From NCBI GenBank assembly GCA_945903645.1, contig CAMDOM010000035.1, forward strand, positions 1 to 38,906: 38,906 nt of DNA, in the 5' to 3' direction. Position numbers and translations under genes: made by a program. Every line of letters starts with the position of its first letter. The stretch's first letter is position 1. The notes beneath the pieces were generated by a model, which saw only the letters and a program-made list of their open reading frames with translations, was not told where the DNA came from and made no database searches. Shown piece by piece: positions 5,393-30,537 of the stretch. Origin of the DNA: Chryseobacterium gleum (GTDB taxonomy: Bacteria; Bacteroidota; Bacteroidia; UBA10329).

Positions 5393-6217
5393 GTGGTTCC
5401 AAGCCGTCATATAGGTAGTTACAAGTCTATCAAAGTTTGGTTAAAAGAACTAATTACCAAACACGAAACACTTTATTTCCTCATTTGGAAGGACTTAAAA
5501 GTGCAGTACGGCAATTTTATTCTAGGATTGCTATGGTCAGTTTTTCAACCAATTTTGTATTTCGGAGCGATTGTTGGGATTTTTTCCGCTGATAAGACTA
5601 GCGTCAACAGTAATTCTATCCCCTTTCCTGTTTTCATTTTTTCAGGGATAGTAATTTGGAATTTCTTCACAAATGCAGTAAACGGTAGTGTTTCTAGTAT
5701 TCAAGCAAATGCTGGAATTATTTCCAAAAGTTATTTTCCGAGATATTACTTGGTGCTTTCACCATTTTTTCGTTGCATACTGGACTTACTAATTTCTAGT
5801 TTTTTACTGCTTTTACTAGCAATTTTCACTCAATCCAGTTTTTCGAATGTTGGATGGTGGAGCATACCAATGGCTGCCATTTTGCTCTTCTTAACCACGC
5901 TTGGACTAGCTACTATAGCTTCAATTTCGGTGGTTTACAACCGTCATCTGCGACACGGAATTCCAATGCTTCTATATGCTGGATTGTTTTTGCTGCCGGT
6001 ATTTCATGCCATACCGACCATAAAATTCACTGTATTGCGAATACTGTATCAGGCAAACCCACTTTCTGTAGCTATTCGATTGGTTCGCTCTGCATTTGGA
6101 AATCAAATAATATCCGTTCCTGAAATATGTATTGCCACAATTTCAGCATTCTCAATTTTTATCTTTGGAATACTTGCGTTTCGCAGATTTGAGAACACTT
6201 TAGCCGATCGCCTTTAA
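5393..6217 (+). CDS. wzm: ABC transporter permease for polysaccharide export (Wzm), first copy
   Basis: This is a six-segment inner-membrane permease of the ABC-2/Wzm family, which with Wzt exports undecaprenyl-linked glycans from cytoplasm to periplasm. The N-terminal amphipathic region contains the family pattern LYFLIWKDLKVQYGNFILG followed by LLWSVFQPILYF. Hydrophobic segments lie near residues 38-60, 75-95, 115-145, 158-178, 185-205 and 240-262, and there is a late NPLS motif. Length (274 residues) is normal. The start is GTG 5393. The Wzt partner begins 2 nt after this stop codon. It is distinct from the second Wzm at 12464: it shares the fold and the LG-LW motif but differs through most of the sequence. 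Confidence 0.9.
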   Translation: MVPSRHIGSYKSIKVWLKELITKHETLYFLIWKDLKVQYGNFILGLLWSVFQPILYFGAIVGIFSADKTSVNSNSIPFPVFIFSGIVIWNFFTNAVNGSVSSIQANAGIISKSYFPRYYLVLSPFFRCILDLLISSFLLLLLAIFTQSSFSNVGWWSIPMAAILLFLTTLGLATIASISVVYNRHLRHGIPMLLYAGLFLLPVFHAIPTIKFTVLRILYQANPLSVAIRLVRSAFGNQIISVPEICIATISAFSIFIFGILAFRRFENTLADRL

Positions 6218-6218
6218 T

Positions 6219-7307
6219 ATGAAAGCTATTCAGCTCAATTCTATTGGCAAATGTTACTCGTTAAAGAATGGCGCAACCAAATGGGCCATTCGCAATGTAT
6301 CAGTAAGCATTCTAAAAGGTGAATCGGTTGGAATAATTGGAGCAAATGGAGCTGGAAAATCAACACTTCTCAAAATTCTTGCTGGAATAACACTACCCAC
6401 GGAAGGCGAAGCAGATATTCATGGTTCTTTTTCAAGTTTATTGGAAGTTGGAACGGGTTTTCATCCAGATTTGTCCGGCAAGGAAAACATATTTCTTAAT
6501 GGCTCAATTTTAGGACTATCAAAAAAACAAATCGATGCGCAACTCATTGCAATCATTGAATTTTCTGGAGTTGCCGATTATATTGATGAGCCTCTGAGAA
6601 CATATTCCAGCGGCATGAAGTTACGTTTAGCTTTTGCGGTAATGGCGCATTTAACTACCGACATTCTGGCATTAGACGAAGTATTGGCCGTTGGCGATTC
6701 GCAATTTCAGATTCAGTGTATAGAGCGCATTTTTTCATTGAAAAATAGTGGAAAAACTATTCTTTTCGTTTCTCACAATCTATCCGCTGTAAAACAACTT
6801 TGCGATAGAGTTATTGTGCTAGATAAAGGTCAAATTGTTTTTGATGGAAAATCGGACGAGGCAATTTCGTTCTATACCAAAAATTCAAGAACTCCAAGTT
6901 TTGAAGGCTCAAAAAATGGTTATTTGAGGGCTATTCAAGTAAGGACGGATAAGAAAAAAATTGAGATATTTCTTGCAATCATTAATTTACCTAAAGATAA
7001 TCCCATTGATTTGGGTGTAAACATTTCTGATAGAGAAGGCAATGCACTTTTTCACTTCAGCAATCGGTTTGTTTCTACTTCTTTAGTGCCAAAAAATGGC
7101 ATTGTAAACTGTTCGCTCCATTTTGAACACCGACTTAAACCTGGAAACTATCCTATAAACGTGTTTATTGGGCAAAACAATGAGCAATTAGAATGGGTAG
7201 AATTTGCTTCTTCTATTGAAATTGAACCCTACAATCCCTACGGATTTCACAATCCAGAGGCTATTCAGGCTTCAATAATTTGTCCCTTTGAGATTATTCA
7301 ACTTTAA
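6219..7307 (+). CDS. wzt: ABC transporter ATP-binding protein (Wzt) with C-terminal glycan-recognition domain, first copy
   Basis: The ATPase domain spans residues 1 to about 235: Walker A GANGAGKST at 41-49, signature YSSGM at 129-133, Walker B DILALDE at 148-154 and the H-loop histidine in FVSHN at about 186. The segment LLEVGTGFHPDLSGKENIFLNG is characteristic of polysaccharide and teichoic-acid exporters. The last 125 or so residues form a beta-rich domain in the Wzt C-terminal position, which in characterised systems binds the modified end of the O-antigen and confers export specificity. It immediately follows its Wzm and is probably co-translated. It is shorter at the N-terminus than the two Wzt proteins at 13351 and 15884, which carry an extra insertion before the Walker A motif. 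Confidence 0.92.
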   Translation: MKAIQLNSIGKCYSLKNGATKWAIRNVSVSILKGESVGIIGANGAGKSTLLKILAGITLPTEGEADIHGSFSSLLEVGTGFHPDLSGKENIFLNGSILGLSKKQIDAQLIAIIEFSGVADYIDEPLRTYSSGMKLRLAFAVMAHLTTDILALDEVLAVGDSQFQIQCIERIFSLKNSGKTILFVSHNLSAVKQLCDRVIVLDKGQIVFDGKSDEAISFYTKNSRTPSFEGSKNGYLRAIQVRTDKKKIEIFLAIINLPKDNPIDLGVNISDREGNALFHFSNRFVSTSLVPKNGIVNCSLHFEHRLKPGNYPINVFIGQNNEQLEWVEFASSIEIEPYNPYGFHNPEAIQASIICPFEIIQL

Positions 7308-11344: not shown

Positions 11345-12457
11345 ATGAAAAAGGCTCTAATTACTGGAATCACTGGTCAGGACGGAGCTTATTTAGCGGA
11401 GTTATTGCTTTCTAAAGGTTACGAAGTTCATGGTATAAAGAGAAGAAGTTCTCTATTAAACACAAACCGTATTGACCATCTCTATATGGATCCGCATGAG
11501 GATAAGGTTAACTTATTCCTTCATTACGGTGACCTAAGTGATTCACTAAACATTACTCGAATTATTCAAGAAGTACAGCCCGATGAGATTTATAATCTCG
11601 GTGCAATGTCTCATGTTAAAGTGAGTTTTGACGAGCCTGAATATACTGCCAACGTTGATGGTCTTGGTGCCCTTCGCATTTTAGAAGCCGTTAGGATGCT
11701 TGGTTTAGTTGGCAAAACGAAAGTGTATCAAGCATCAACGTCCGAACTTTATGGTTTGGTTCAACAGGTGCCTCAAAGTGAACAAACTCCTTTTTATCCG
11801 CGCTCGCCTTATGGCGTAGCAAAACTATATGCCTATTGGATTACCGTAAACTACCGCGAAGCTTACAATATGTTTGCAAGCAATGGAATACTATTTAATC
11901 ACGAAAGTCCTGTAAGAGGTGAAACATTTGTAACGCGAAAAATCACACGTGCAGCAGCGAAGATTGCTCTAGGGCTTGACCGTAAACTCTATCTTGGAAA
12001 TTTAGATGCTCAGCGCGATTGGGGACATGCCAAAGATTATGTGGAAGCCATGTGGCTTATTTTGCAACAGGAGAAACCCTCAGACTTTGTTATTGCAACT
12101 GGCATAACTACTGCAGTTCGCGAATTTGTTCGCCAATCTTTCGTGAAAGCTGGAATAGTTTTAGAGTTTGTCGGAAAAGGCAAAGATGAAAAAGGGAAGA
12201 TAAAGGACTTGATGGGAGAATTTTCCCATTTGAAGATAGGTGATGTGCTCGTGGAAGTAGACTCAAATTACTACCGACCAACTGAAGTGGATTTACTAAT
12301 TGGTGACCCAACAAAGGCAAATCAAGTGTTAGGTTGGACTCCAAAATATACCCTCGACCAGCTGATTACGGAAATGATGGAAAGTGATTTAGCTTATTTC
12401 AAAAAGCAATTACACCTAACAAATTCTGGTTTTACTATCAATATTGAAAGAGAGTAA
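11345..12457 (+). CDS. gmd: GDP-mannose 4,6-dehydratase
   Basis: Gmd is a cytosolic extended short-chain dehydrogenase that converts GDP-D-mannose to GDP-4-keto-6-deoxy-D-mannose. The NADP-binding glycine motif is GITGQDG at 8-14. The active-site set is visible as STSE at 131-134 (T132, E134) and YGVAK at 156-160 (Y156, K160). The tracts [26 protein letters not shown] and [15 protein letters not shown] are diagnostic of Gmd. Length (370) is normal. The usual next enzymes (GDP-fucose synthase, GDP-rhamnose reductase) are not beside it or elsewhere in this window. Its product could therefore be used by an enzyme encoded elsewhere or, less likely, by one of the aminotransferases here to give GDP-perosamine. 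The next gene (Wzm) starts 6 nt later. Confidence 0.96.
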
Positions 12458-12463
12458 CCAAAA

Positions 12464-13339
12464 ATGGCCTTATCTAAACAAATAAGCTCTAAAGAAACCG
12501 AGCAGTGGGATTTAGTAATAGGTCCAAAAGATAAATGGTACGACTTAAGACTGGCAGAACTGTGGGATTATCGTGATTTGATATCCATTTTTGTTCGAAG
12601 AGACCTTGTAGCAACCTACAAACAAACGGTGCTTGGACCATTGTGGTTCTTCTTGAGCCCTTTGTTTACAGTAATCATGTTTACTTTCGTTTTTAACCGA
12701 ATTGCAGGTATATCTACGGATGGAATACCAGCTCCTGTTTTTTACATGGGTGGCACTACACTTTGGAACTACTTCTCTGCATGCTTTGGTGGTGCATCTA
12801 ACACATTTGTTTCGAATGCAGGCCTTTTTGGAAAAGTTTACTTTCCTCGATTAGCGGCCCCAATTGCTATGGTTATAAGTAACTTATTCAAATTTAGCGT
12901 TCAAATGCTAATGTTTCTTGTATTCCTCTTCTACTATCGAATGCAGGAAGGAAACACGCTACACTTCACCCCTTACTTAGCTTTATTCCCGTTATTAGTA
13001 GTGTTGATGGGCGGTATGGCTCTTGGAATTGGTATTATCATTTCTTCGTTTACCACAAAATATCGAGATCTTACGTACTTTATTGGTTTTGGAGTTTCAC
13101 TTTTGATGTATGCAACTCCAGTTATTTATCCCGTGTCTGCAATACCAGACAGCTACCGTTGGTTTGTAGAAATCAATCCAATTTCTCCACTAATAGAAAT
13201 GTTCCGACTTGGATTTACTGGAAGCGGTACGGTAACTTTATGGGGAGTCCTCTATAGTGCTGTTTTCACTTTGATTTCACTATTACTTGGTGCTATCTTA
13301 TTCCATCGTACGGAAAAAACTTTCATGGATACCGTCTAG
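12464..13339 (+). CDS. wzm: ABC transporter permease for polysaccharide export (Wzm), second copy
   Basis: This is a 291-residue ABC-2 type permease with about six membrane segments. The cytosolic N-terminus contains YDLRLAELWDYRDL and the Wzm hallmark VRRDLVATYKQTVLGPLWFF. The C-terminal half has YATPVIYPVSAIP and NPISPLIEMFR, both typical of O-antigen exporters. It lies 6 nt after gmd and 11 nt before a Wzt gene. Because two closely related Wzt subunits (13351 and 15884) follow but only this permease is near, it may pair with both. The start at ATG 12464 fits the spacing. Confidence 0.93.
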   Translation: MALSKQISSKETEQWDLVIGPKDKWYDLRLAELWDYRDLISIFVRRDLVATYKQTVLGPLWFFLSPLFTVIMFTFVFNRIAGISTDGIPAPVFYMGGTTLWNYFSACFGGASNTFVSNAGLFGKVYFPRLAAPIAMVISNLFKFSVQMLMFLVFLFYYRMQEGNTLHFTPYLALFPLLVVLMGGMALGIGIIISSFTTKYRDLTYFIGFGVSLLMYATPVIYPVSAIPDSYRWFVEINPISPLIEMFRLGFTGSGTVTLWGVLYSAVFTLISLLLGAILFHRTEKTFMDTV

Positions 13340-13350
13340 GAAATTTAAAG

Positions 13351-14619
13351 ATGTCCGCTGTTATCAAAGTTGAATACGTCTCAAAACAATACCGGCTTGG
13401 ACTTGTAGGCACTGGGACTATGCGTGATGATTTGGAAGGCTGGTGGTATCGCGTGCGCGGAAAGGAAGACCCTACCCTTAGACTGAGAGAAACAAACGAT
13501 AGAACTTCATCTAGCGACAGCAACTATGTATGGGCTTTACGCGATGTTAATTTCGAGGTAAAGCAAGGAGAAGTACTTGGAATTATTGGAAAGAATGGAG
13601 CAGGAAAAAGCACTTTACTCAAACTACTTTCTAGAGTAACAGCACCTACAATTGGCAATATCAAGGTTAAAGGACGCATTGCCAGCCTCTTGGAAGTAGG
13701 AACTGGATTTCATCCAGAACTCACAGGCAAGGAGAATATTTTCCTAAACGGGGCCATCATGGGCATGAAGAAACACGAAATTGCCAGCAAACTGGACGAG
13801 ATTGTTGACTTCGCAGGCGTGGAGCGCTACCTAGAAACCCCAGTAAAACGCTACAGCAGTGGCATGTATGTGCGTTTAGCCTTTGCCGTAGCTGCTCACT
13901 TAGAACCTGAAATTCTAATTGTAGATGAAGTTTTAGCAGTTGGAGATGCTGACTTTCAAAAAAAAGCTTTGGGCAAGATGAAAGAAGTTTCCTCAGGTTC
14001 AGGAAGGACTGTGCTATTTGTTAGTCATAATATGGCCTCCGTCAAGTCTTTGTGTAATCGCGCTTTACTCTTAGAAAATGGTCAAGTTCGATTGGACTCG
14101 TATACTAGTCAAGTTATTTCCGCATACCTCGGCATTTTCAATTCAGCTGAAACACAGAATCATAGAGTTTTTGGGGAGTCATTCAATTTGGACTTATTCC
14201 ACTTGCATTCCGTGGCAATTGAAGTTCTAGGAAAAATCCAAGGAAAACCTATTGAAGAAGATGATGCAATTGAGGTTATCACAGTTATAACTTTAAAAAC
14301 AGACCATCCAGAACGCTACCATATTACCTATCATTTACATAGTGGTTCAGGTGACCCAGTGTTCTCGTTCGGTAGTGATACCGTGAATTTAAAATCAGGA
14401 ATGAATATTTTGACTTGCCGATTTCCAGCAGGATTTCTTCAATCAGATGAATACTTCCTAAGCTTTCTATTTATCGAGGACAAACACACAGCGATATTTA
14501 AAGAAAAAGACATCTTACAGTTCGCTATTATAAATGCACCACGAGAACTCGGGATATATATGGGAAAAGAGCCAGGATATGTGCGGCCACGATTTGAATG
14601 GGATATTAGTACTAAATAA
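13351..14619 (+). CDS. wzt: ABC transporter ATP-binding protein (Wzt) with C-terminal recognition domain, second copy
   Basis: This 422-residue Wzt has Walker A GKNGAGKST at 80-88, signature YSSGM at 168-172, Walker B ILIVDE at 188-193 and an H-loop at H226. A 30-residue insertion (about 25-58, with WWYRVRGKEDPTLRL) precedes Walker A, as in many O-antigen Wzt proteins. After about residue 245 the protein changes to a beta-rich domain of about 175 residues in the Wzt C-terminal position. By eye the first 205 residues differ from the Wzt at 15884 at 18 positions, while the C-terminal domains show no clear similarity. It most likely energises the Wzm just upstream and recognises a specific modified glycan end. 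Confidence 0.93.
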   Translation: MSAVIKVEYVSKQYRLGLVGTGTMRDDLEGWWYRVRGKEDPTLRLRETNDRTSSSDSNYVWALRDVNFEVKQGEVLGIIGKNGAGKSTLLKLLSRVTAPTIGNIKVKGRIASLLEVGTGFHPELTGKENIFLNGAIMGMKKHEIASKLDEIVDFAGVERYLETPVKRYSSGMYVRLAFAVAAHLEPEILIVDEVLAVGDADFQKKALGKMKEVSSGSGRTVLFVSHNMASVKSLCNRALLLENGQVRLDSYTSQVISAYLGIFNSAETQNHRVFGESFNLDLFHLHSVAIEVLGKIQGKPIEEDDAIEVITVITLKTDHPERYHITYHLHSGSGDPVFSFGSDTVNLKSGMNILTCRFPAGFLQSDEYFLSFLFIEDKHTAIFKEKDILQFAIINAPRELGIYMGKEPGYVRPRFEWDISTK

Positions 14620-14625
14620 ACTTTA

Positions 14626-15699
14626 ATGATTCCCGTTACCAGAACCTTCCTCCCCCCCATACAAGAGTATAAAGCACTGGTGCAGCGCGCATTTGATGCA
14701 CATCACCTCACAAATCGTGGTCCGATGGTAGTTGAGCTTGAGGCTAAATTACGGGAGTATTTAGGAGTGCAAAATATTCTAATGATGACTAACGGCACCA
14801 TACCTATTCAAATAGCTGTGAAGCTTTTGGGGAATGGTGGAGAAATCATTACCACTCCGTTTAGTTATGTGGCCACAACCTCATCCATTGTTTGGGAAGG
14901 ATGTACTCCGGTTTTCGTTGATATTCATCCAGAATACCTTACGATTGATGAAACCAAGATAGAAGCTGCCATTACGCCTAAAACCACCGCTATACTCGCC
15001 ACTCATGTATTTGGCAATCCATGCAATGTGGAGGCAATAGAAGGAATTGCGCATAGGCATGGGCTGAAAGTAATCTATGACGGGGCCCATGCTTTTGGAG
15101 TAAATTACCAAGCTCAAAGCTTATTCAATTTTGGTGATGTAAGCACCTGTAGTTTTCATGCCACGAAACTGTTTCACACGGGCGAAGGCGGTGCCATTTT
15201 CTGCTCTGATAAAGAATTAGCGAATAAAATTTACTATAGCCATAACTTCGGTCATGATGGCCCTTTGGCATTCCAAGGACTAGGTATAAACGGTAAAATG
15301 TCTGAATTACAAGCCGCTATGGGGCTGGCCGTATTTCCATATCTCAAAACTATTATTGAGCAACGTAGGGAACTCGCCTTCAGTTATATCGATTTACTTT
15401 GCAATGCTGATTTAACTTTTATAAAAATTCGCGATAACACCGATTGGAATTATAGCTACTTTCCTATTCTTTTCCGTAGCGAGAATGATTTATTACGAGT
15501 TGTAGAGGTCTTGAATAAAGCCGATATTTTCCCGAGGAGATACTTTTTTCCATCCCTAAATACCCTTCCATACCTTCCTGCTTCTTCAATGCCAGTTTCG
15601 GAATCTGTGGCATCTCGAATTGCTTGTATACCCATTTATCCCGGACTGGAAATGGTAGAAGTGCACCGTATCTCACAAATTATTAAAAATGCTCTTTAA
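14626..15699 (+). CDS. DegT/DnrJ/EryC1/StrS sugar aminotransferase, VioA-like
   Basis: This is a PLP-dependent aminotransferase (357 residues) that converts a 4-keto-6-deoxy nucleotide sugar to the 4-amino sugar. The PLP lysine is K181 in SFHATKLFHTGEGG, and D152 in IYDGAHAFG contacts the cofactor. The N-terminal pattern TRTFLPPIQEY...HLTNRGP and ITTPFSYVATTSSIVW resembles VioA/FdtB enzymes, which make dTDP-Qui4N or related amino sugars, more than perosamine synthases. A VioF-like N-formyltransferase at 20276 and a second, decayed copy of this gene's 3' end directly before it support a path to a formamido sugar. The alternative substrate is the product of Gmd. It sits between two Wzt genes, 6 nt after the first. 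Confidence 0.88.
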   Translation: MIPVTRTFLPPIQEYKALVQRAFDAHHLTNRGPMVVELEAKLREYLGVQNILMMTNGTIPIQIAVKLLGNGGEIITTPFSYVATTSSIVWEGCTPVFVDIHPEYLTIDETKIEAAITPKTTAILATHVFGNPCNVEAIEGIAHRHGLKVIYDGAHAFGVNYQAQSLFNFGDVSTCSFHATKLFHTGEGGAIFCSDKELANKIYYSHNFGHDGPLAFQGLGINGKMSELQAAMGLAVFPYLKTIIEQRRELAFSYIDLLCNADLTFIKIRDNTDWNYSYFPILFRSENDLLRVVEVLNKADIFPRRYFFPSLNTLPYLPASSMPVSESVASRIACIPIYPGLEMVEVHRISQIIKNAL

Positions 15700-15883
15700 A
15701 AATTACAAAGTGAATCAAACAAAAAATATTAGTTAAAACTAACACCGCAATATTGCTATCGGCCTTTCAAAAAGAATTGCACCAAGAACAGTACTTCCTT
15801 TAAGCTTTTAAAACGAAAAATCATGATTTGGATGTACTTGTGAAATTTAAAATTGGAATAACTACTCTCATAAATTACAGAAT

Positions 15884-17140
15884 ATGCCAACGGCAATACG
15901 TGTAGAGCATGTGTCAAAACAATACCGCCTAGGACTCGTAGGTTCCGGAACCATGCGAGACGACCTTGAAGGCTGGTGGTATCGCATGCGCGGTAAAGAT
16001 GACCCTACCTTAAAACTGGGCGAAACAAACGATAGAACTTCTTCTAGCGACAGCAACTATGTTTGGGCTTTACGCGATGTCAGTTTTGAGGTGCAACAAG
16101 GCGAAGTGTTAGGTGTTATTGGCAAAAACGGAGCAGGAAAAAGCACTTTACTTAAGCTACTTTCTCGTGTAACGGCACCTACCATTGGCAATATAAAAGT
16201 TAAGGGTCGCATTGCCAGCCTTTTGGAGGTAGGCACTGGATTTCACCCAGAACTTACCGGAAAGGAGAATATTTTCCTGAATGGAGCAATTATGGGTATG
16301 AAGAAGAACGAAATTGCCCGCAAGCTGGATGAGATTGTCGATTTTGCTGGAGTGGAACGCTACCTCGAAACACCTGTCAAACGCTATAGCAGTGGCATGT
16401 ATGTGCGTTTAGCCTTTGCAGTGGCTGCCCATCTAGATCCGGAAATCATGATTGTAGACGAAGTTCTGGCAGTAGGAGACGCAGAGTTTCAGAAGAAGTG
16501 TCTTGGCAAAATGCAATCTGTTTCTTCGAATGAAGGTAAGACAATACTCTTCGTAAGTCACAATATGGCTTTCGTTAAAAACCTTTGCAGAAATTGCATA
16601 TATCTGCAACGCGGAACGGTTCATGCCACAGGAACTGCTGACGAAATGGTAGCAAGCTATCTGAATGACCAATCAGAGGACGTTAGAGTAAGGCGCACAG
16701 GAGGAGACCAACTATTCCTTAAGTCTTTTTCTATGCTATCGCAAGATAATCAAAGGATAGACAGTCCAATTTTATGGGAGCCTTTGACCTTTTTACTAGA
16801 GTATCAAGTAAATACATCTTTGAGGGGTGTAACATTTTCAGTATGCTTCAACGACACTTCAGGAAATCGTATTGTTTCCTATTGGAGCGAATTCGCAGGC
16901 AACCGCTACGACCTAAAATCAGGAAAATTCTCCATACGCGTTGATGTTGAACGGTTCAAATTGACCCCCGGAGTGTACGAGATTGTTATTTATGCTGGAG
17001 TCGGAAACGCTGTTTTGGAGCAACTTGATAACTTCAAGAGGGTCACAGTAGGAATTGATGCAGCGAAACGTATGGAGATATTACCATTATCTACACAAGG
17101 GCACTTTATAGACATGTGTGCGTTTCATTTTAATAGCTAA
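15884..17140 (+). CDS. wzt: ABC transporter ATP-binding protein (Wzt) with a different C-terminal domain, third copy
   Basis: This 418-residue Wzt uses the same motif positions as the gene at 13351 (Walker A 80-88, signature 168-172, H226) and is nearly identical to it up to about residue 205. After about residue 230 the two diverge, and the C-terminal region here (about 270-418, with YQVNTSLRGVTFSVCFND and FKLTPGVYEIVIYAG) is a separate beta-sandwich-like recognition domain. Many synonymous differences are present in the shared part, so this is not a very recent copy. No separate Wzm is adjacent. It is followed by two FkbM methyltransferases that could create the terminal mark it recognises. 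A 184-bp gap without a gene precedes it. Confidence 0.92.
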   Translation: MPTAIRVEHVSKQYRLGLVGSGTMRDDLEGWWYRMRGKDDPTLKLGETNDRTSSSDSNYVWALRDVSFEVQQGEVLGVIGKNGAGKSTLLKLLSRVTAPTIGNIKVKGRIASLLEVGTGFHPELTGKENIFLNGAIMGMKKNEIARKLDEIVDFAGVERYLETPVKRYSSGMYVRLAFAVAAHLDPEIMIVDEVLAVGDAEFQKKCLGKMQSVSSNEGKTILFVSHNMAFVKNLCRNCIYLQRGTVHATGTADEMVASYLNDQSEDVRVRRTGGDQLFLKSFSMLSQDNQRIDSPILWEPLTFLLEYQVNTSLRGVTFSVCFNDTSGNRIVSYWSEFAGNRYDLKSGKFSIRVDVERFKLTPGVYEIVIYAGVGNAVLEQLDNFKRVTVGIDAAKRMEILPLSTQGHFIDMCAFHFNS

Positions 17141-17177
17141 AATTTTAAATCCAATTATTGCTCTAAACAAAACGTTG

Positions 17178-17933
17178 ATGAAGGAACTAGTAAGGAAAGC
17201 TTTCGGTACTTTAGGCTATGAGGTAAAAAGAGCAAAACAGAATGTAGAGGGCTATGACAACCATCTAAATGCTTTCCTTTATCAACGTAAACTGCTTGGT
17301 GAATTGGGCAGAAATCCCTTGATTCTAGATGTGGGTGCTTACCACGGCCAAACAGTTAGACTCTACAAGGAGCAATTTCCAAATGCTATCATTCACGCTT
17401 TCGAGCCATTTGCAGAATCATTAGAGATTGCAAAACGAGCGACTGCTGATTTAAATAATATCCATTTTCACGGTGTGGCTCTTGGCAAAAACTCAGGAAT
17501 TAGTTCATTTAATCTTTTGACCCATACGCCAGCCAGTTCACTTTTGGAGCTTGATAAGAGTGCTGGAGAAGCATGGGGAAAAGGTCTCTTAGAAAATGCA
17601 TCTACTATTGAAGTGGAAATCATTACGTTGAATGACTTTGTTAAGAACAACCAACTGAAGCATATTGACATACTAAAGTTAGACACTCAGGGACTTGAGT
17701 ACGAAATTCTTAGTGCCTCATCAGAATTACTTGCCTCAAAAAAAATTTCAATGGTGTATGCAGAAATCATCACCATGCCCACTTATAAAAACCAAAAAGG
17801 ACTTGAAGAATACTTGAAGCTATTCAAAGATTGTGGATTCGAGCTTTTCAATTTTTTCAATTCATCAACTAGAAATGGTAAACTTCGCCAAGTGGATGCT
17901 CTCTTCTTCCATCCTCAGTTGATAAATATCTAA
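17178..17933 (+). CDS. FkbM family SAM-dependent methyltransferase
   Basis: FkbM-type enzymes O-methylate sugars or other small groups using S-adenosylmethionine. The SAM-binding motif is ILDVGAYHGQT at 49-59, followed by HAFEPFAES (73-81) at the second strand. The late motif DILKLDTQGLEYEIL at 164-178 is the hallmark of the family. I chose ATG 17178, giving the start MKELVRKAFGTLGYEV; an upstream GTG (17118) would overlap the preceding Wzt and add 20 residues that match nothing I know. It is followed after 1 nt by a second FkbM gene. A role in capping or decorating the exported glycan is inferred from context. Confidence 0.85.
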   Translation: MKELVRKAFGTLGYEVKRAKQNVEGYDNHLNAFLYQRKLLGELGRNPLILDVGAYHGQTVRLYKEQFPNAIIHAFEPFAESLEIAKRATADLNNIHFHGVALGKNSGISSFNLLTHTPASSLLELDKSAGEAWGKGLLENASTIEVEIITLNDFVKNNQLKHIDILKLDTQGLEYEILSASSELLASKKISMVYAEIITMPTYKNQKGLEEYLKLFKDCGFELFNFFNSSTRNGKLRQVDALFFHPQLINI

Positions 17934-17934
17934 C

Positions 17935-18852
17935 ATGTTAACTCTCGACCTTCATTTGGTGGATTTCTTTCTGCATCGATTAACCATCTATCGTAAGCGA
18001 AGAACTTTAAAGCCACATCGTTTTAAAATCTGGAAAGCTCAGTATGAATTTGATATTTTTTTAGGCGAATCAAGTAAGACTGTTTTCAATTTTGTGAATG
18101 GTGTGCAAATGATGCTATACAAGGACAATAAGCTATCATTTGAAATTTTCCATGGATTTGAATTGGATGAGATAGATTTTGTAAATCGATTCCTTAAGCA
18201 AGGAGATACGTTTGTTGATGTCGGTACTAATGTGGGACTGTTCTCTTTACACGCAAGTGCAATTGTGGGTGAACGCGGCAAAGTCATATCCTTCGAACCT
18301 TCATCGGCCACGGTGCATCGATTGCAAGAGAATATTGCATTGAACGGTTGTATCAATATTGAAATTGTACCAAAAGGACTATCTTTCGAACCAGGTGTTC
18401 TTGAGTTGGTAGTAGCTGGGAATGGCTATGATGCTTTCAATTCTTTTGCAGTCCCATCTATGGGAGCCATTACAGCACGGGAAAAGGTTGAAGTTACAAC
18501 CGTAGACTCTTTTATGACCCTCAAGGGTATCGCACCGAAAGATGTTAAATTGATAAAAATTGACGTGGAGGGCTGGGAGCTGCATGTACTTAAAGGAGGT
18601 GAGACCTTTTTCGGTCACGTTGATGCTCCCGTACTTCTGGTTGAATTCACCGAGACCAACGCCAAAAATGCAGGAACTTCTTGTATTGAACTAGGACTAC
18701 TTTTGCAAAAACTAGGCTACACCCTTTATGTTTATGATTCAAAACTTAAGAAACTGACGGATGAACCCTTTGGCAAAACCTATGACTATAAAAACCTCAT
18801 AGCCTCCAAGAACAATCGCGAAGGATTAAGCGACTTTATGCAAAAATCATGA
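17935..18852 (+). CDS. FkbM family SAM-dependent methyltransferase
   Basis: This second FkbM enzyme (305 residues) has the SAM motif VDVGTNVGLFSL at 94-105, ISFEPSS at 118-124 and the family signature LIKIDVEGWELHVLKGG in its second half. The N-terminal 85 residues form an extra region seen in longer FkbM proteins. It begins 1 nt after the preceding FkbM stop codon and overlaps the next GT2 gene by 4 nt (ATGA), so all three are probably translated as a unit. The methylation target is unknown; a sugar hydroxyl on the growing or finished chain is the usual expectation in such clusters. Confidence 0.87.
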   Translation: MLTLDLHLVDFFLHRLTIYRKRRTLKPHRFKIWKAQYEFDIFLGESSKTVFNFVNGVQMMLYKDNKLSFEIFHGFELDEIDFVNRFLKQGDTFVDVGTNVGLFSLHASAIVGERGKVISFEPSSATVHRLQENIALNGCINIEIVPKGLSFEPGVLELVVAGNGYDAFNSFAVPSMGAITAREKVEVTTVDSFMTLKGIAPKDVKLIKIDVEGWELHVLKGGETFFGHVDAPVLLVEFTETNAKNAGTSCIELGLLLQKLGYTLYVYDSKLKKLTDEPFGKTYDYKNLIASKNNREGLSDFMQKS

Positions 18853-19940
18853 AGACTAAGCTGCCGTTATATGTAGGAACCCCAGAGATTCCTGACGAGG
18901 ATGCCTATAACTGCACCTATGACCCCTTGGTACAATGGCCAAAAATATCTATCGTAACTCCCAGTTTTAATCAGGGTCAGTACATCGAAACCACAATACG
19001 CAGTATTTTACTTCAGAAATATCCCAACATTCAATATGTTATTATAGATGGCGGAAGCAAAGACAAAACTCTCGCAATAATTAAACATTATGAAAGTTAT
19101 ATCTACTTTTGGACATCTGAACCTGATAAAGGGCAAAGTGATGCTATTAACAAGGGGCTTAAAATAGTAAACGGTGAAATCTTCAATTGGATTAATTCTG
19201 ATGACTATTTGTTGCCGAAAGCTCTTAAGACCGTGGCAGAGCTTTTCCTTAAGAACGATGCTCTAGCAATCGGAACACAGTCAAACCTAATCCGTGGCAA
19301 TGAATTTGAACGTGTTAACGAATCAACGATAAAGCGAAAATCTGTCTTGGAAAGTGCTTGGGAGCGAGGGATGAATCAACAAGGGCTATTCTTTTCCATG
19401 GAAAGTATTATTGCTTTGAAAGGCGTTGATGATCGTTATCATTACTCCATGGACCTCGATTTATGGGTTCGTTTTTTACTCACATTTGGACAAGATCGTT
19501 ATTTCACCGATATTTTTGTAAGTTCTGTTTTTAGATTACATGACAACTGTAAGTCAGTGGATGGATGGGGACAAGGATCGCCATCTGACCGAGAGACACA
19601 GGCTTTATATTTTAGATTGGCCAATTTGCTTAAAGATTCAAGATATTTCCCAGCACTTAATTTACTATTCCCTGACTGTAAGACAGACCTCGCTAGTTTA
19701 CCCTTACATAGTGATGTGCCAACACAAAATGTTGAGAAATGGCTGAATTTTGGCCTTTTCTTGGAATTGAAAAAATCTTATCATTTGGAGCATTTTGAGC
19801 GTGCTGCGATAATTAGTAGCGCCATTAATCCCGATTATCTCGATAATATCTATTCAAAGGACTTTAAAGCAATTCTTCGTTACACAAAATTGCATGGTTC
19901 GCATTTAGGGAGATTTGTTAAAAAACTTTTAAATAGGTGA
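18849..19940 (+). CDS. GT2 family glycosyltransferase
   Basis: This is a 363-residue GT-A enzyme with a short N-terminal extension (about 30 residues) before ISIVTPSFNQGQYIETTI. DGGSKDKT is at 67-74, SEPDKGQSDAINKG at 90-103 and the DXD equivalent NSDD at 116-119. YHYSMDLDLWVRFLLTFG matches the acceptor-side block in the GT2 enzymes at 9262 and 27236, which appear to be paralogues. The start overlaps the previous stop as ATGA. Downstream is a 335-bp stretch without an intact gene that holds a decayed aminotransferase fragment. Confidence 0.88.
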   Translation: MKTKLPLYVGTPEIPDEDAYNCTYDPLVQWPKISIVTPSFNQGQYIETTIRSILLQKYPNIQYVIIDGGSKDKTLAIIKHYESYIYFWTSEPDKGQSDAINKGLKIVNGEIFNWINSDDYLLPKALKTVAELFLKNDALAIGTQSNLIRGNEFERVNESTIKRKSVLESAWERGMNQQGLFFSMESIIALKGVDDRYHYSMDLDLWVRFLLTFGQDRYFTDIFVSSVFRLHDNCKSVDGWGQGSPSDRETQALYFRLANLLKDSRYFPALNLLFPDCKTDLASLPLHSDVPTQNVEKWLNFGLFLELKKSYHLEHFERAAIISSAINPDYLDNIYSKDFKAILRYTKLHGSHLGRFVKKLLNR

Positions 19941-20001
19941 GCAAATTTAACATAACCCTCCACCTATTAATGAAAGAATTTGAAACCTTTGTAAAATATA
20001 G

Positions 20002-20244
20002 GCTTTTCAAGCCTTTCAAGTCCATTCGCGTTCAAACATTGGTCTATATAATTTATTTTGTAAAGTAAACATTCCCTACAAATTATACTTTTTCCCATCC
20101 TTAAATACGCTTCCTTATCTGCCCATGATTTCAATGCCAATTTCGGAATCCGTGGTATCACGAATTGCTTGTCTTCCCATTTATCCAGGACTGGAAATGG
20201 CAGAAGTGCATAGAATTACGGTAATTATAAAAATTGCACTTTAA
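20002..20244 (+). pseudogene. Remnant of a VioA-like aminotransferase (C-terminal end only)
   Basis: From 20086 to the stop codon at 20242-20244 the plus strand encodes 52 residues that align almost without change with the last 52 residues of the aminotransferase at 14626. Both read YFFPSLNTLPYLP, then SMP-SES, then SRIAC-PIYPGLEM-EVHRI and a final ...II-AL stop. A weaker but in-frame resemblance (RS...L...K..I) extends upstream to about 20026, and the frame is closed by a TAG at 19999. The rest of the gene, including the PLP lysine region, is missing. It sits directly upstream of the formyltransferase, which suggests that an intact aminotransferase gene once preceded that gene and was lost or moved. 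This stretch accounts for most of the 335-bp gap between 19941 and 20275. Confidence 0.88.
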
Positions 20245-20275
20245 TCATCCAGAAGTGTCTCAGATAGCAAAAAAA

Positions 20276-20995
20276 ATGTTGGTCATTACTGATAACACAG
20301 TTTTACTAACTGCATTTCAAGAAATAGTTGCAGACTTACCAGAACATCACTTTAGTTATGGTTATAGTCCAAAAAATCGTAATCCAGATGCTCTTGTTAA
20401 ATTGGGTTGCACGGCTGTCGATGTAAAAAAGGATTGGCAGAAAATAGCTTCGTCATTCCAAATCGTATTTTCACTTCATTGCAAGCAAATTTTCCCGGTT
20501 GAATTAGTGAATTCTGTGAGATGTCTAAATCTGCATCCTGGACTAAATCCGCACAATCGTGGATGGTTTCCACAGGTGTTTTCAATTCTAAATAATTTGC
20601 CTGCAGGAGCTACCCTCCACGAAATGGTTGCTGAAATTGATAGAGGTCCAGTTGTTGCCCAAAAAACAGTAGAATTACTCCCTCAAGATACTTCTCTATG
20701 TGCATACAACAGGATTCTTGATGCCGAAATTGAGCTTCTAAAAGCCTGGTTACCTCAAATACTTTCTGGCAATTATCATTGCCGCGATACCGAAGAAGGT
20801 AACTATAACGGGATTGCGGATTTTAATGCACTGTGTCATATCGACCTCAACGAAACTGCTACATTTAAGGATTTTGTCAATAGAATTCGTGCTTTAAGCC
20901 ACCCTCCTTATCGAAACGCCTATTTTATAGCCGATTCAGGCCAAAAAATCTATCTGAATCTTGAATTATTCTCAGAAAATGATAGCAAAGCCTGA
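20276..20995 (+). CDS. Nucleotide-sugar N-formyltransferase (VioF/WbtJ-like)
   Basis: These enzymes transfer a formyl group from N10-formyltetrahydrofolate to the 4- or 3-amino group of a dideoxy amino sugar nucleotide. The catalytic triad is visible as N85 and H87 in CLNLHPGLNPHNRGW and D122 in EIDRGP, and the spacing fits the family. The tract GWFPQVFSILNNLPAGATLHEM is typical of dTDP-4-amino-4,6-dideoxyglucose formyltransferases. After about residue 200 there is a short C-terminal subdomain. I use ATG 20276 (MLVITDN) because the Rossmann fold begins there; TTG 20234 lies inside the aminotransferase remnant. With the aminotransferase at 14626 it would give a 4-formamido-4,6-dideoxyhexose. 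It overlaps the next gene by 17 nt. Confidence 0.88.
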   Translation: MLVITDNTVLLTAFQEIVADLPEHHFSYGYSPKNRNPDALVKLGCTAVDVKKDWQKIASSFQIVFSLHCKQIFPVELVNSVRCLNLHPGLNPHNRGWFPQVFSILNNLPAGATLHEMVAEIDRGPVVAQKTVELLPQDTSLCAYNRILDAEIELLKAWLPQILSGNYHCRDTEEGNYNGIADFNALCHIDLNETATFKDFVNRIRALSHPPYRNAYFIADSGQKIYLNLELFSENDSKA

Positions 20996-29376: not shown

Positions 29377-30537
29377 ATGAATCTGCCATTCAATCTCCAA
29401 TATATAAGTGGATTAGAAGAAACGTATCTAAAGGAATGCATCCATAACGGACTTTTTTCAGGGAATGGTCCATTCACCGTGAAATGTCAATCTTGGTTAG
29501 AAAATCGCTATCCCTTTCATAAAGCGATGCTAACCAGCTCTTGCACTGATGCGTTAGAAATGGCTGCACTTTTACTGGATGTGCGCTCGGGAGATGAAAT
29601 TATTATGCCTTCCTACACATTTGTTAGTACTGCAAATGCATTTGTATTAAGAGGGGCAACTGTAGTTTTTGCGGATAGTAGAACGGACCATCCTGGAATT
29701 GATGAAACACGAATAGAAGCCCTGATATCTTCGCGTACTAAGGCAATTGTAGTAGTGCATTACGCAGGTGTGGCTTGCGACATGGATGTGATTATGGATA
29801 TCGCTGCGCGGTATGGACTAAAAGTGGTTGAGGATGCTGCTCAAGCAATAGATTGTTTTTACAAAGGAAGGCCGTTGGGTGGAATTGGGCATTTGGGTGC
29901 CTTTTCATTTCATGCTACAAAAAATATCCATTGCGGTGAAGGTGGAGCCTTAATCATAAATGACATTTCGTTAGTGAACCGTGCTGAAATTCTTTGGGAA
30001 CATGGAACCGACAAAGCTGCATTTGTAAGAGGAGAGATTGAACATTATCAGTGGCGAGAAGTGGGATCTTCATTTTTACCTTCAGAACTAAATGCCGCTT
30101 TTCTTTGGGGACAATTTCAATCTCTAGATGAAGTTACTAAAGAACGATGCCGACTATCAGAATTGTATATTTCGAAATTATCTGCTTTTTTTGAACGTAG
30201 TCTACTCTATAAGCCCAGTATTCCAGATTACAGCAAACACAATGGACACATTAGCTATATTGTGTGCCAATCAATGGAACAACGGGATGCATTAACAAAA
30301 CACTTAAAACAAGCTAGTATTCAAGCGTGCTCGCATTACCAACCACTTCATTCTTCTCATTACTATCAAGCTAGTCAAAAAAATCAACATCTGGGAAATT
30401 GTGAACGATATGGAAGCTGTCTACTCCGCCTTCCTATGTATGTTGGTCTTAAAGATGAAGACATAATTAAAATTTGCGAGGAAATTGGTTCTTTTCTCCT
30501 TAATACTAAAAAGGACAATTCAAACAATTCTTACTAA
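29377..30537 (+). CDS. wecE: dTDP-4-amino-4,6-dideoxygalactose transaminase (WecE/RffA-like)
   Basis: This PLP enzyme aminates dTDP-4-keto-6-deoxy-D-glucose to dTDP-4-amino-4,6-dideoxy-D-galactose (dTDP-Fuc4N). The 386 residues follow the WecE pattern closely: LFSGNGPFTVKCQSWLE, LTSSCTDALEMAALLLD, IMPSYTFVSTANAFVLRGA, VHYAGVACDMD and WREVGSSFLPSELNAAFLW. The PLP lysine is K182 in SFHATKN and the cofactor aspartate is D153 in EDAAQAI. It is clearly different from the VioA-like enzyme at 14626. The supply enzymes RmlA and RmlB are not in this window and must be encoded elsewhere. A 136-bp gap with a promoter-like element follows. Confidence 0.87.
   Translation: MNLPFNLQYISGLEETYLKECIHNGLFSGNGPFTVKCQSWLENRYPFHKAMLTSSCTDALEMAALLLDVRSGDEIIMPSYTFVSTANAFVLRGATVVFADSRTDHPGIDETRIEALISSRTKAIVVVHYAGVACDMDVIMDIAARYGLKVVEDAAQAIDCFYKGRPLGGIGHLGAFSFHATKNIHCGEGGALIINDISLVNRAEILWEHGTDKAAFVRGEIEHYQWREVGSSFLPSELNAAFLWGQFQSLDEVTKERCRLSELYISKLSAFFERSLLYKPSIPDYSKHNGHISYIVCQSMEQRDALTKHLKQASIQACSHYQPLHSSHYYQASQKNQHLGNCERYGSCLLRLPMYVGLKDEDIIKICEEIGSFLLNTKKDNSNNSY

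Follow-up and report, generated by a model that had tools for sequence, protein, structure and literature searches.

The O-antigen clusters of Salmonella include wzy remnants in groups B1 and D1, a D2 cluster that is a D1/E recombinant, and a group A triplication with a chimeric wbaU::wzx gene (PMC3715488). In these clusters, as in the locus described here, stumps of once-functional genes or chimeric genes record recombination and loss. In Wzm/Wzt export, as described in other species such as Aquifex aeolicus, the C-terminal domain of Wzt recognises the cap, frequently a methyl group, that the growing chain carries (PMC9445017), and the Wzt of E. coli O8/O9a is cited in the same article as likewise cap-reading.

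The window analysed here is contig CAMDOM010000035.1 of Chryseobacterium gleum (GCA_945903645.1), 38,906 nt long, to which all coordinates below refer. It holds, in order, wztA, an aminotransferase gene (AT) and a formyltransferase (FT) stump, then wztB, fkbM1, fkbM2 and GT2, and finally an AT stump and an intact FT (Table 1). A 4.2-kb block is framed by two copies of one AT-FT junction, which overlap over about 310 nt. A further complete and genus-conserved pair (wzm1, wzt1) lies upstream at 5393-7307, so that the window contains two wzm genes and three wzt genes in all. The stretch between the upstream glycosyltransferase (GT) genes and wzm2 holds a GDP-mannose 4,6-dehydratase gene (11345-12457), which is not found at that place in the relatives G005, G004 and G008.

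Table 1. Features of the locus, with coordinates in the window.
Feature	Coordinates	Strand	Description	Evidence
wzm2	12464..13339	+	ABC O-antigen exporter permease; sole wzm immediately 5' of the two following wzt genes	63-66% identity to wzm preceding wzt in same-genus genomes
wztA	13351..14619	+	ATPase half, up to about codon 240, is sister to that of wztB; the C-terminal half, for cap binding, is of the type mostly seen directly 5' of AT	Predicted Wzt carbohydrate-binding fold for C-terminal half
AT	14626..15699	+	Intact DegT-family sugar aminotransferase	PF01041
FT stump	15721..15848	+	Decayed formyltransferase 5' end	Alignment to 20271-20404
Left junction	15849..15883	+	35 nt immediately 5' of wztB; FT homology not detectable	Score at shuffle level
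wztB	15884..17140	+	ATPase half sister to wztA; other C-terminal cap-binding half, nearest relatives in wzm-wzt-fkbM2-GT2 module of another family (f28)	
fkbM1	17118..17933	+	FkbM-family methyltransferase, start codon uncertain	PF05050, TIGR01444
fkbM2	17935..18852	+	FkbM-family methyltransferase	48% to f28-family module
GT2	18849..19940	+	GT2 glycosyltransferase	42-45% to f28-family module, full length
Right junction	19941..20084	+	144 nt without AT homology	Score at shuffle level
AT stump	20085..20244	+	Second aminotransferase gene: last 52 codons and stop, left edge sharp	
FT	20276..20995	+	Intact dTDP-4-amino-4,6-dideoxyglucose N-formyltransferase, 239 aa	NF005755; PDB 6v2t, 4yfv VioF

The original prediction placed the decayed end of an aminotransferase gene at 20002-20244, with the 52 codons before the stop matching the C-terminus of the intact AT. 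This match was borne out, 43 of the 52 residues being identical (83%). Nucleotide alignment of 15540-15699 with 20085-20244 gave about 80% identity across the 52 codons, with a local alignment score of 199 (shuffled sequences: mean 22, maximum 37). A repeat finder paired 15540-15726 with 20085-20271 as a 187-nt direct repeat (77%), and its spacing of 4545 nt agrees with the distance claimed between the AT copies. The resemblance exceeds that to random DegT C-termini, since identity to the stump does not go above about 60% for the other ATs compared and is about 51-54% for the AT of the same-genus genome G005. The comparison set comprised the best 80 loci from a scan of the genomes of about 85,000 species, together with 395 class genomes. 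The predicted extent held only in part: AT homology begins at 20085, at AT codon 305/306, whereas 20002-20084 is only a stop-to-stop open frame. The cofactor-binding part and most of the enzyme are missing, and the fragment has no Pfam match. The stump is truncated, but its frame is open and retains the conserved residues of the family, so it is not decayed at the base level. The right junction scores at shuffle level against AT and holds a 32-codon ORF (MKEFETF...) and a small hairpin at 20000-20014. This ORF was considered as a second truncated gene and rejected, as it has no convincing homologue among the loci compared. At the level of sequence, 20085-20244 is confirmed as a pseudogene remnant of an AT of the DegT/DnrJ/EryC1/StrS family.

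A mirror image of the AT stump, unremarked in the original prediction, lies in the spacer (15700-15883) 3' of the intact AT: the decayed 5' end of an FT gene. Alignment of 15721-15848 with 20271-20404 scores 82.5, compared with 23.5 on average for shuffles (sd 3.6, maximum 46.5), and the other window segments listed, apart from those overlapping FT or the spacer, all score below 82.5. The stump is nearer to the FT of the window (score 64) than to eight other FTs (16-40). The start-codon position (15726) reads ATA, and the stump carries an in-frame TAA and gaps of 1, 2 and 3 nt. With FT homology and disabling lesions both present, 15721-15848 is classed as an FT pseudogene remnant. Comparison of the flanks revealed sharp edges at 20085 and 15848, with flanking sequence at shuffle level; FT homology is not detectable beyond 15848. 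The start of the intact FT is most likely the ATG at 20276, 31 nt past the stop of the AT stump, and the AT-FT gap in the first copy is 26 nt.

The intact FT passes the equivalog model NF005755 (258.5 bits, cutoff 238). AT stays below the cutoffs of its best NCBIfam models (DesI, 238.6 of 650; WecE, 133 of 435), and its membership holds only at the level of PF01041. Judging from the substrate of the paired FT, AT likely makes dTDP-4-amino-4,6-dideoxyglucose. AT was probably acquired from outside the genus, because it is closer to ATs of distant Bacteroidota, many of them Flavobacterium (62-68%, in loci compared without a detected FT), than to those of its own genus (only about 54%), whereas wzt and wzm are genus-like. 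A WecE-type sugar aminotransferase gene downstream, at 29377-30537, exceeds the NCBIfam cutoffs of NF008687 and TIGR02379 and is not a copy of AT.

The stump had been attributed to duplication followed by loss of one AT. A duplicate did exist and one copy was lost, but the losses are reciprocal, given the FT stump 3' of the intact AT. The duplicated unit was not AT alone either: the ATPase half of wzt is doubled too, so the unit spans wzt to AT-FT. wztA and wztB share 84% identity over residues 1-250, with similarity at background level from about codon 240 onwards. They group as sisters (support 100/98) in a tree of 47 Wzt ATPase domains, within a clade that holds same-genus Wzt. Their C-terminal halves show no more than background identity to each other. 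The wztA-type C-terminus was found in 11 of 20 loci with wzt directly before AT versus 3 of 29 with intervening genes, and the nearest relatives of the wztB type are in wzm-wzt-fkbM2-GT2 modules of the f28 family. wztB is thus a mosaic of a local-lineage ATPase half and a module-specific, predicted cap-binding half, because the former is sister to that of wztA and the latter differs, with relatives in f28 modules. Against PF14524 (Wzt_C), wztB scores 27.6 bits, below the cutoff of 30.4, and wztA has no match, yet 9 of the 13 members of the wztA alignment do match. The predicted folds of both C-terminal halves best match structures of Wzt carbohydrate-binding domains (8dky, 2r5o, 5hno). We infer that the two Wzt proteins recognise different chain caps. 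By analogy with known Wzt proteins, the FkbM methyltransferases adjoining wztB may plausibly make the cap read by its C-terminal domain; no paper in the literature library searched treats Wzt and FkbM together with the C-terminal domain.

The relatives agree with the claim that AT-FT is the natural order. Among class-sample genomes with both sides readable, AT directly precedes FT in 12 of 13; the order is reversed in G297, and G357 is cut by a contig end. A search for an undisrupted pair found it intact in G005, but none at strain level, the closest AT among the best 80 loci of the scan being at 68%. The G005 order, wzm1-wzt1-GT-GT-GT-wzm2-wzt-AT-FT, is that of the window minus the block. Other genes lie between wzt and AT in G004 (5.6 kb), G008 (1.5 kb) and G001 (3.3 kb). 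Relatives have a single wzt-AT-FT interval, in which variable genes take up 0 to 5.6 kb ahead of AT, and the window has two versions in tandem. Because the relatives differ in these genes (G005 versus G004, G008 and G001), the wzt-to-AT interval is a hypervariable slot, of which the window holds two fillings. As a unit, the hypervariable part seems to comprise the Wzt cap-binding domain and the genes that follow as far as AT. In G295 and G110, both of the f28 family, a wzm-wzt-fkbM2-GT2 module lies a few kb 5' of a second arrangement, wzm-wzt stump-AT-FT. Between wzm and AT, these wzt 5' stumps have 75 codons in G110 (L152:14335-14559) and about 30 codons in G295 (L151:12421-12510), and their identity to the intact G035 wzt is 75-80%. 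From these stumps, beside those of the window, neighbouring modules with pruned genes are found at this locus in two families.

The divergence between the copies bears on their history. It had been suggested that the block was inserted by recombination between copies. wztB-fkbM-fkbM-GT2 does lie between two AT-FT junction copies, but near-identical copies are unlikely: a recent duplication or recombination between near-identical sequences is disfavoured because the copies are about 80% alike at best and share no exact word longer than 13 nt at the AT-FT junctions; the longest inside wzt is 32 nt. The proportion of synonymous differences, pS, is 0.67 for wzt, 0.45 for AT and 0.57 for FT, near saturation. 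Over 52 codons, 17.7 synonymous and 13.3 non-synonymous changes separate AT from its stump (dN/dS 0.18), and the unconstrained share of the stump branch is estimated at 0.07-0.22, with an upper bootstrap limit of 0.74. The two AT genes thus diverged mainly as working genes, because fuller release from constraint would give more replacement changes. The dN of the FT stump is 0.34 versus 0.12 for the AT stump (bootstrap difference 0.06-0.38), which suggests that FT was lost earlier than AT; the dN/dS of the FT stump is not significantly above that of the AT stump.

The locus is probably the product of two alleles of one O-antigen export and cap module that were stacked by additive recombination and then underwent complementary loss. 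The module, as seen in relatives, begins with wzm and wzt and ends with AT and FT, with anything from no to several variable genes in between. Version 1 would have been wztA-AT-FT and version 2 wztB-fkbM-fkbM-GT2-AT-FT, and recombination would have joined them additively rather than by replacement. The doubled sugar-pathway genes would then have been redundant and each lost once, in complementary fashion. Version 1 would have kept only the first ~43 codons of FT, unless the join itself made that cut, and version 2 only the last 52 of AT. With one AT and one FT left, synthesis of the formylated sugar could continue, and two Wzt with different predicted cap-binding domains would persist. We infer the order of these events and the route of the crossover; the two stumps, the sharp edges, the sister duplicated parts, the alternative intervals in relatives and the undisrupted genus order are seen directly. 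The similar AT-FT gaps, the sister ATPase halves, the contexts of the wztA and wztB C-termini, the G005 order and the G110 and G295 modules also support stacking. Several observations argue against it. The intermediate is not seen, as both modules were found complete in no strain or close species. A full tandem duplication predicts a second wzm before wztB, barring its later loss or a join at that point; none is present, and inspection by eye showed no wzm tail residue there. Divergence is uneven among wzt, AT and FT, which may therefore stem from more than one event, and the stumps are short (52 aligned codons for AT, 37 for FT).

A single event could also be envisaged, in which a circle with wztB-fkbM-fkbM-GT2 and some 310 nt of the AT-FT junction integrated by one Campbell-type recombination into the chromosomal AT-FT junction. 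It would yield both stumps, both sharp edges and the intact AT and FT at once, and the overlap of the copies is indeed a single continuous segment (15540-15848 versus 20085-20404). We consider it unlikely: the crossover would have to join sequences that are no more than about 70-80% alike and have no exact word above 13 nt in common, and the sister relation of the ATPase halves would stay unexplained. The higher dN of the FT stump is not predicted by simultaneous truncation, although the dN/dS difference is not significant, and there is no integrase, transposase or plasmid gene among the genes examined. Insertion of the block as a mobile element was rejected, since wzt, fkbM, fkbM and GT2 include no transposase or integrase and the flanking copies are diverged AT-FT parts rather than identical terminal repeats.

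Every duplicated part is the closest relative of its partner among the sequences compared, as expected if wzt-AT-FT had been duplicated in tandem within one genome, a foreign wzt C-terminus-fkbM-fkbM-GT2 segment had recombined into the second copy and pruning had followed, with no allele from another strain. Yet the AT divergence accumulated mostly under constraint, so both copies would have been functional for long in one genome, and the join within wzt at about codon 200-240 requires a separate event, which makes this course quite improbable. Finally, the genome is a draft of 105 contigs, and the assembler might have joined alleles of two strains. This is very hard to credit, as neither the AT-FT copies nor wzt share a repeat long enough for a likely mis-join (13 and 32 nt), and the lost start, stop and gaps of the FT stump are not expected from mis-joined intact genes.

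If the two modules were stacked as proposed, the locus shows the doubling and then the trimming of a surface-polysaccharide export module. If both Wzt proteins are used, it is a natural test of one Wzm serving two cap specificities. A further step, which we regard as rather doubtful, is that stacking was kept by selection, one Wzm with two interchangeable Wzt exporting chains with two kinds of cap, and that the wzt-to-AT interval serves generally as an exchange site, moving the cap-binding domain and the cap-making genes together.

In contrast to the Salmonella clusters, reciprocal stumps frame a block here, the cluster is of the Wzm/Wzt export type in a genus of Bacteroidota, and no IS element was found among the genes examined. 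Both Wzt of the locus are predicted to have the same fold as the cap-reading carbohydrate-binding domain of A. aeolicus Wzt (PMC9445017), but unlike the Aquifex and E. coli systems, one wzm is followed by two wzt genes whose ATPase halves are closely similar but whose cap-binding domains differ. The locus resembles a VioA/VioF-type pair in that its FT passes NF005755 and AT precedes FT in relatives; it departs from it in that AT and FT are split by 4.6 kb and AT is above no NCBIfam equivalog cutoff. In Massilia, variable genes lie between wzm/wzt and vioA, as here, and a two-wzt cluster is also mentioned; that genus belongs to another phylum, and the portion of the article consulted reports no stacked double module or stumps (PMC9834719). 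Remnants and chimeras in O-antigen loci are thus already known, and the present locus is a clear and well-preserved new example with reciprocal stumps rather than a new kind of system.
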